A stretch of 64,000 bases of DNA, from NCBI GenBank assembly GCA_947630785.1, contig CANRIW010000001.1, forward strand, positions 1 through 64,000. The letters run 5' to 3'. The notes under the pieces were generated by a model. That model saw only the letters and a list, made by a program, of their open reading frames with translations. It made no database searches and was not told the origin of the DNA. This document shows positions 39,195 through 40,332 of this stretch, in pieces. The position numbers and the translations under genes were made by a program. The stretch comes from an uncultured Oscillospiraceae bacterium (lineage in GTDB: Bacteria; Bacillota; Clostridia; Oscillospirales; Oscillospiraceae). The first letter of the stretch is position 1. Each line of letters starts with the position of its first letter.

Positions 39195-39228
39195 GAGGGG
39201 GAATGTTTCACGTGAAACATTCCCCCTC
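39195..39228. promoter_or_regulatory. parS site within a 34-bp perfect palindrome (possible terminator)
   Basis: GAGGGGGAATGTTTCACGTGAAACATTCCCCCTC; parS core 39204-39219. Confidence 0.92.
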
Positions 39229-39231
39229 ACG

Positions 39232-39450
39232 TCACCGCCTGGAATAGGGCTTCGGGTCTTCGGTGAGGCCCACCAGATAGTCCACGCTGGTGCAGTAATA
39301 CTGCGCCAGTTTGACGGCAAAATCCAGCGGCAGCGGGCGTTCGCCGCGCTCGAACTTGGAGTACAGCGACTGGTCACAGTGGAGGTATTCGGCGATCTGA
39401 CGTTGCTTCAGGTCTTTGTCCTCCCGGAGGTCGCGGATGCGTAGTCTCAT
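39232..39450 (-). CDS. XRE-family HTH regulator
   Basis: MRLRIRDLREDKDLKQRQIAEYLHCDQSLYSKFERGERPLPLDFAVKLAQYYCTSVDYLVGLTEDPKPYSRR. Confidence 0.92.
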   Translation of the reverse strand: MRLRIRDLREDKDLKQRQIAEYLHCDQSLYSKFERGERPLPLDFAVKLAQYYCTSVDYLVGLTEDPKPYSRR

Positions 39451-39477
39451 TTTTATCACCGAGATAACTATAGCGCG

Positions 39478-39521
39478 GGACATATTGTCCTATTGACAAA
39501 ATGGACGATATGTCCTAAACT
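39478..39521 (+). promoter_or_regulatory. Paired operators and promoter of XRE / small-ORF divergent unit
   Basis: GGACATATTGTCC (39478-39490) and GGACGATATGTCC (39503-39515); TTGACA(39493-39498)-17-TAAACT(39516-39521). Confidence 0.75.
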
Positions 39522-39540
39522 ATACAAGAGGTGACAGAAA

Positions 39541-39714
39541 ATGCCAGACTACAAAGAGATGTATTTGAAAATGATGCGGGCCTCGGAAAGGGCCCTCCGG
39601 CAGATGGAGGCGGCCTCGGCGGGGCTCATCGCCGCCCAGCGGGAGTGCGAGGAGCTGTATCTGTCGGCGGCGGAGCCGGAGCTAAAGGTAGTGGAGATGC
39701 CGGAAAAGGAATAG
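39541..39714 (+). CDS. Small hypothetical protein (57 aa) divergent from XRE
   Basis: Manual translation MPDYKEMYLKMMRASERALRQMEAASAGLIAAQRECEELYLSAAEPELKVVEMPEKE*; AGAGGTG SD; below ORF-track cutoff. Confidence 0.75.
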   Translation: MPDYKEMYLKMMRASERALRQMEAASAGLIAAQRECEELYLSAAEPELKVVEMPEKE

Positions 39715-40241
39715 GCTTTTTGAGGGTTCCGCCCCCGGGCGGGTCACTTTTCCCCCGGGGGAAAAGTAACCAAAAGGCCGCTCAAGGGGCCGGCGGCCGG
39801 GTTGGAGCGTACCGCTCCACAGGCCGCCTTGCCCCCTGAGGACCCCCGTTTACAGGGGCGCCCGATTCGGCAGCCTGGCAGTCGCGTCCGGCACGAGGTC
39901 GTCGCCCCGCTTCCGCTTGATTTCGCGCTATGCGCTTCGTGTCTGTGCGCTGACACACTCTGCGTCTGCCCGCCCGTGCCTGCATGGGCACTCACGCACC
40001 GCCAGCGGCGTGGCCCTCACCGGTAGGGCGGCAGACTGCCGAAAGGCGGGCCGGGCCCGCCGGGCCACCCATCCAGGCGCCCGCAGGAGACGCTTTGCAG
40101 AACCGGACACCCGCGCACCAGCGGCAGCGGAAAGAGCCGCTGATCAAATTCGAAACACTCGCGCCGGAAATAGAAGTTGGCAGGCTGACAACGGCCCCCG
40201 TAAAAAACGGGGGTCCTTAGGGGGCGGAACCCTCAAAAAGC
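39715..40241. repeat. Non-coding element bounded by 22-bp perfect inverted repeats, hairpin-dense
   Basis: GCTTTTTGAGGGTTCCGCCCCC (39715-39736) and its exact reverse complement (40220-40241); internal 22-bp palindrome ACTTTTCCCCCGGGGGAAAAGT and inner IR AGGACCCCCGTTT/AAACGGGGGTCCT. Confidence 0.8.
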
Positions 40242-40314
40242 GCGGCTTGCCTGCTTGCGCAGGCCGTCGTCGGCTTCGCCGCCGCCGGAGGGCTCACGCC
40301 CTCCAAAGCCGCGC
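40240..40314. other. Cloverleaf-like multi-hairpin fold 3' of noc-like gene
   Basis: GCGCGGCTT ... AAGCCGCGC closing stem enclosing CCTGC-TTGC-GCAGG, CGGC-TTC-GCCG and GGAGGGC-TCAC-GCCCTCC hairpins. Confidence 0.65.
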
Positions 40315-40332
40315 CGCAGGTGGGGTCTGCCT

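Follow-up and report, generated by a model that had tools for sequence, protein, structure and literature searches.

REP, BIME and REPIN sequences are inverted pairs of hairpins that lie between genes and are associated with RAYT transposases, and the ends of IS200/IS605 elements carry subterminal hairpins that are read as single-stranded DNA by means of base-paired guide sequences. Bacterial MITEs, as reviewed in PMC10969869, are short, non-coding, intergenic sequences with terminal inverted repeats that occur in multiple copies and encode no transposase. The TwoAYGGAY RNA is known from human gut, gamma-Proteobacteria and Clostridiales (PMC2864571).

The locus considered here lies in a window of 64,000 nt (positions 1 to 64,000 of contig CANRIW010000001.1, from an uncultured Oscillospiraceae bacterium) and shares all of these features with MITEs; it differs in having ~250-bp multi-hairpin ends with covarying pseudoknots, in the lack of a parent IS among the copies we fetched, and in that some copies hold XRE and small-ORF genes. 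With REP/BIME/REPIN sequences it has in common intergenic, inverted hairpin pairs for which recognition as a single strand is plausible, but it is much larger, its hairpin loop forms a pseudoknot with downstream sequence, and its richest carriers are without Y1/RAYT. Unlike those of IS200/IS605, its ends are inverted; in addition, it pairs a hairpin loop with a triplet further downstream and has no linked Y1 enzyme. The open-access literature yielded nothing relevant on the motif, on DUF6809 or on similar elements, and journals without open access may contain a description. From sequence comparison and predicted folding, we consider it reasonably probable that we are dealing with a rearranged copy of a MITE-like mobile repeat of intergenic regions that lacks a transposase and whose ends would be recognised as folded single strands by an enzyme acting in trans. 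The relevant features of the window are these:

39232..39483, minus strand: XRE (HTH_3) regulator gene, outside the element
39541..39714, plus strand: small ORF of 57 aa, no family match; G030 has the ORF without the element
39715..40241, minus strand: whole element copy, canonically oriented on the minus strand, where the stronger 5' end module leads
39715..39736, plus strand: left arm of the 22-nt perfect inverted repeat, overlapping the family's outer hairpin sequence GGTTCCGCCCCCGGGCGG (39725-39742)
39742..39771, plus strand: terminal palindromic hairpin, arms 39742-39754 and 39759-39771, tetraloop CCGG at 39755-39758
39772..39780, plus strand: A-rich linker AAAAGG (39772-39777) and triplet CCG (39778-39780), predicted H-type pseudoknot
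39782..39839, plus strand: variable hairpin closed by CTCAAGGGG/CCCCCTGAG, inner stem GGAGCG-TAC-CGCTCC
39832..39898, plus strand: inner section of the 3' end module (positions 1-69 matched by nhmmer), including an ACCCCCG..CGGGG-type hairpin
40074..40224, minus strand: inner section of the 5' end module (1-152 matched by nhmmer)
40220..40241, plus strand: right arm of the 22-nt perfect inverted repeat, from the repeat search and the copy alignment
40240..40315, plus strand: separate inverted-repeat family abutting the element, GGAGGGCTCACGCCCTCCAAAGCCGCG...

The copy in the window has the 57-aa ORF on one side and noc on the other, and the XRE gene lies upstream of the 57-aa ORF and divergent to it. 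A repeat search of the window recovered the inverted pair at 39715-39736/40220-40241 (22 nt, 100% identity), a nested inverted pair at 39831-39851/40205-40225 (21 nt, 95%) and a palindrome at 39742-39771 with 15-nt arms (93%) and a perfect 22-nt core. The preliminary description of this stretch was therefore right about its 22-bp perfect inverted repeats, its 22-bp perfect palindrome and a start 1 nt past the stop of the 57-aa ORF (the stop is at 39714), and its nested pair exists but is longer than the 13 nt it gave. The limits it drew at 39715-40241 are those of the repeats; the core homologous with other copies, according to an alignment of the four copies in this genome, is narrower (39725-40228). 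The outer 10 nt of each arm (GCTTTTTGAG) are peculiar to the window copy, as is the pairing of the two arms with each other in that alignment, and the ends of the family are not 22-bp repeats, as had been proposed, but hairpin-rich inverted repeats of ~250 bp.

An intact copy measures ~600-700 bp and consists of two inverted end modules of ~250 bp, each built of nested hairpins, that are separated hardly or not at all, or else by an insert of 0.55-0.95 kb. Each module begins with an outer GC hairpin, followed by a palindrome of the type GTTACTTTTCCC-ACGT-GGGAAAAGTAAC, an A-rich linker and a variable hairpin closed by CTTAGGGGG/CCCCCTAAG, and its inner portion comprises a CCCCC..GGGGG hairpin and the conserved blocks TTCCGGCGCG, GCTGCCGC and GCGCCTG. 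The window copy has CCCCC..CGGGGG and the TTTCCGGCGCG, GCTGCCGC and GCGCCTGG blocks in the inner section of its 5' end module, and its noc side is without the outer hairpin and palindrome seen in the copies on contig C2. At the position of the right arm the other copies run on through GGGGGCGGAGACGC into a ~120-nt hairpin and the terminal palindrome, whereas the window copy departs from the family consensus at GGGGGCGGA and from there on is an inverted copy of its other end.

As judged from this alignment, the 22-bp repeats are a secondary rearrangement of the window copy and not canonical family ends. They probably arose by template switching at the 9-nt microhomology GGGGGCGGA: an inverted copy of the other end would have replaced the pseudoknot end on the noc side at that point and so created the 22-bp repeat, which would be perfect because the switch copied the other end. 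This rearrangement probably left the window copy immobile.

Other repeats occur beside or inside copies. The family at 40240-40315 also flanks copies in G000, G004 and G007, on one outer side or, sometimes, on both in inverted orientation. Two sister copies (L043 2410-2590 and L042 1305-1485) have a central insertion of ~140 nt (CCTCCGTCAGCCGCTGCGCGGCTGCCACCTCC...), apparently another dispersed repeat.

The same genome carries four copies including that in the window; the other three lie on contig C2 near addA and addB (helicase-nuclease genes) and glmM, names that were read from ORFs, and over the main stretches they are 86-93% identical to the window copy. Related elements were found in 13 of 60 genomes searched, all belonging to one uncultured Oscillospiraceae genus, and 23 genomes from the order's other families gave no element match. 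Of 42 genomes of the genus, 12 contain the exact end motif, which the controls did not match at all, and across a collection of 85,462 species it occurs in only 24 stretches, all from assemblies of uncultured Oscillospiraceae, Clostridiales or Bacillota type. These counts bear out the multicopy occurrence that would go with the mobile element first suggested. Copies have sharp boundaries and are dispersed: in G017, which has 15 matches to the element in total, seven aligned copies are 78-97% identical while their flanks are 32-48% identical, i.e. unrelated. Near-identical copies between unrelated flanks indicate that the element has moved, a conclusion reached with a comparative set that holds one genome per species and many metagenome assemblies. 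Chance palindromes are ruled out by copy number and by the covariation described below, and a phage or plasmid origin by the phage and plasmid collections, which contained nothing similar to the element.

Sites with and without the element could be compared in two places. The noc-parA gap is empty in G024, holds the XRE/small-ORF pair only in G030, the element only in G004 and both in G000, and contains half-elements in G036 and G027; the site downstream of glmM is occupied in G028 and empty in several congeners, which have just a terminator-like hairpin there. Empty sites, proposed together with target-site duplications as marks of mobility, thus exist at both noc-parA and glmM, but no duplication is readable, the empty sites found being too diverged among congeners for reading at base level. 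The chief rival to a mobile repeat is a structured RNA or bidirectional terminator that the host retains in the 3' parts of transcripts from flanking or inserted genes, with dispersal being old or incidental. It agrees with the position of the element at glmM, in the place of the terminator-like hairpin of the empty sites, and with the flanking genes of 22 cases, 15 of them tandem, 6 convergent and 1 divergent by rough heuristic gene calls. Solo ends, which exist and have no distant partner within several kb in the stretches fetched, suit such a host-retained structure equally well. However, presence and absence vary among congeners at one and the same site, and the near-identical G017 copies at unrelated sites would need recent duplication, and we regard this explanation as unlikely.

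Predicted folding is strong. A 722-nt stretch of G017 is predicted to fold as a rod of about -450 kcal/mol. Whichever strand is taken, the z-scores for folding of the end modules average roughly -6 to -7.5, well outside what chance would give, and this agrees with the first impression of a hairpin-dense element with strong nucleic-acid structure. By raw folding energies the outward strand is the more stable at both ends, a point in favour of the RNA or terminator. After dinucleotide shuffles, however, this difference is gone or weaker; the strand preference is thus weak and strand polarity was not accepted on the basis of folding energy. A gathering-score search of Rfam 15 matched the element itself to no family, and its identification as a catalogued Rfam family was accordingly dropped.

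The most telling regularity concerns the terminal hairpin. In the window, the triplet CCG at 39778-39780 is complementary to the loop triplet CGG at 39756-39758, and throughout the family a triplet 6-7 nt past the hairpin matches the final three bases of the loop in reverse complement in 65 of 66 parsed ends and in 40 of 41 distinct end sequences. Six complementary types occur (CGT/ACG, CGC/GCG, CGG/CCG, TGT/ACA, CAT/ATG and TGC/GCA), and 122 of 123 bases are paired, whereas 100,000 permutations averaged 85 and never exceeded 102, in a test that ignores the relatedness of the sequences. A single genome can have different types, and so can the two ends of a single element, which indicates that the changes were repeated, and the type at each end is independent of that of its partner. 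Stem positions show compensatory pair types as well, and the covariation that had been put forward as a check on the element is therefore seen in both loop/triplet and stem pairs. The loop/downstream complementarity implies that single-stranded nucleic acid would form an H-type pseudoknot, and the covariation indicates that a single strand folds; it does not by itself mean that the folding serves transposition. In the few types that exist, the sequence of the purine linker is a mirror of the stem arm (AAAAG with CTTTT, AAAGA with CTTTC), which would suit a linker that perhaps lies along the stem as a third strand.

Inverted ends, multiple copies, intergenic location and the absence of coding capacity would equally be expected of an ordinary MITE, that is, an internally deleted DDE transposon with incidental hairpins whose terminal duplex is bound by a transposase encoded elsewhere. 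In duplex DNA, however, the loop-triplet covariation would be meaningless, and the end sequences vary widely yet keep their pairing; moreover, no target-site duplication was seen at the diverged sites and the recovered copies are without a transposase. An ordinary MITE is accordingly unlikely in our estimation.

No transposase is encoded by any recovered copy, in line with what had been observed for the window copy, and no other mobiliser came to light. The original suggestion of a MITE-like element mobilised in trans is upheld by the multicopy state, the sharp boundaries, the unrelated flanks, the existence of empty sites and the fact that no transposase is encoded, and falls short in that the 22-bp repeats are not canonical ends. 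In the mobile repeat that we favour, the loop of the end hairpin would pair with the triplet 6-7 nt downstream to give an H-type pseudoknot, which can form only on single-stranded DNA or RNA; an enzyme acting in trans would recognise the folded end, and the single strands would become accessible at replication or through an RNA intermediate. Both the enzyme and the role of the fold as a recognition signal are what we infer. If folded pseudoknot ends are indeed the signal, they constitute an end type outside the duplex-TIR and the IS200/IS605 hairpin schemes, and mobility should be kept by compensatory loop/triplet changes and abolished by single changes.

Recognition as a single strand would account for the covariation also in a REP/REPIN-type element moved by a RAYT or another Y1 HUH transposase, and paired inverted hairpins in intergenic regions are what such an element would show. 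Yet Y1_Tnp (PF01797) is absent from G017, G036, G028, G027, G029 and G032, the richest carriers being among these, and is present in several genomes with no element match. A Y1/RAYT mobiliser is disfavoured by this absence from the main carriers, and we hold a REP/REPIN-type origin to be very improbable.

Copies that bear cargo regularly have an XRE gene in their insert. At ~11 element or half-element loci genes lie beside or between the inner ends, XRE in nearly all of them, and the XRE gene is often accompanied by a small ORF, in some cases of family DUF6809. An end was matched nearby (E<=1) at 11 of 30 loci with a DUF6809-type ORF, which indicates that the association is real but not obligatory; the remaining loci are without ends, many of them at conserved genomic sites. 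An obligatory XRE/DUF6809 cassette is ruled out, since the unit is found without ends at the same sites. Such persistence of the unit would suit a host-retained RNA or terminator equally, and that rival also draws support from cargo copies with a divergent gene pair, in which both genes read outward into the ends.

The XRE/57-aa pair (39232-39714) is polymorphic at noc-parA, being present in G030 and G000 and not in G024 or G004. At 39203-39222, with parA on one side and the XRE gene on the other, there is a parS-like palindrome, TGTTTCACGTGAAACA, which congeners also have in their noc-parA gap. In L154 and L155 a different large hairpin (GGGGGTCGAACG ... GAGAGGCC), similar in both genomes, is located just 3' of the DUF6809-type ORF.

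Outside the genus, a loose version of the hairpin pattern is multicopy in several distant Bacillota genomes. Among 21 hairpins from outside the family, a small, hand-listed set that includes three proteobacterial hairpins located from a seed sequence, 76 loop/downstream bases match as opposed to 50 after shuffling (0 of 20,000 shuffles). The pseudoknot rule holds in other Bacillota genera and in two of the three Proteobacteria; hairpins with CTTTTCTTTG arms are mostly without loop/downstream complementarity. Directly behind the pseudoknot hairpin, TwoAYGGAY (RF01731) is matched in Pseudoalteromonas with 51.3 bits and in Aeromonas with 41.5 bits, just under the cut-off of 43, and the two motifs thus adjoin there. 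Further loci of this kind in other Bacillota contain AYGGAY-loop hairpins (~0.01 expected), mostly on the outward strand, which again speaks for an RNA or terminator. RF01731 (>43 bits) had no match in the window or in 42 genomes of its genus, where the absence is provisional, since the search matched no control genome either, and the elements examined from that genus had no AYGGAY hairpin.

More tentatively, the window copy may be a member of an undescribed, cross-phylum class of mobile repeats that have loop-downstream pseudoknot ends, perhaps with a third-strand purine linker, that contain the orphan TwoAYGGAY RNA as an internal part, and that are moved as folded single strands by an unknown enzyme. 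If folded pseudoknot ends are the recognition signal, such an end type is present in several Bacillota genera and in Proteobacteria, and TwoAYGGAY, a structured-RNA candidate of unknown function, would gain a concrete hypothesis. At L176 1400-1511 the outer margin of one such hairpin is overlapped by the Rfam sRNA candidate Bp1_684 (Burkholderia), which may be defined by this type of repeat.
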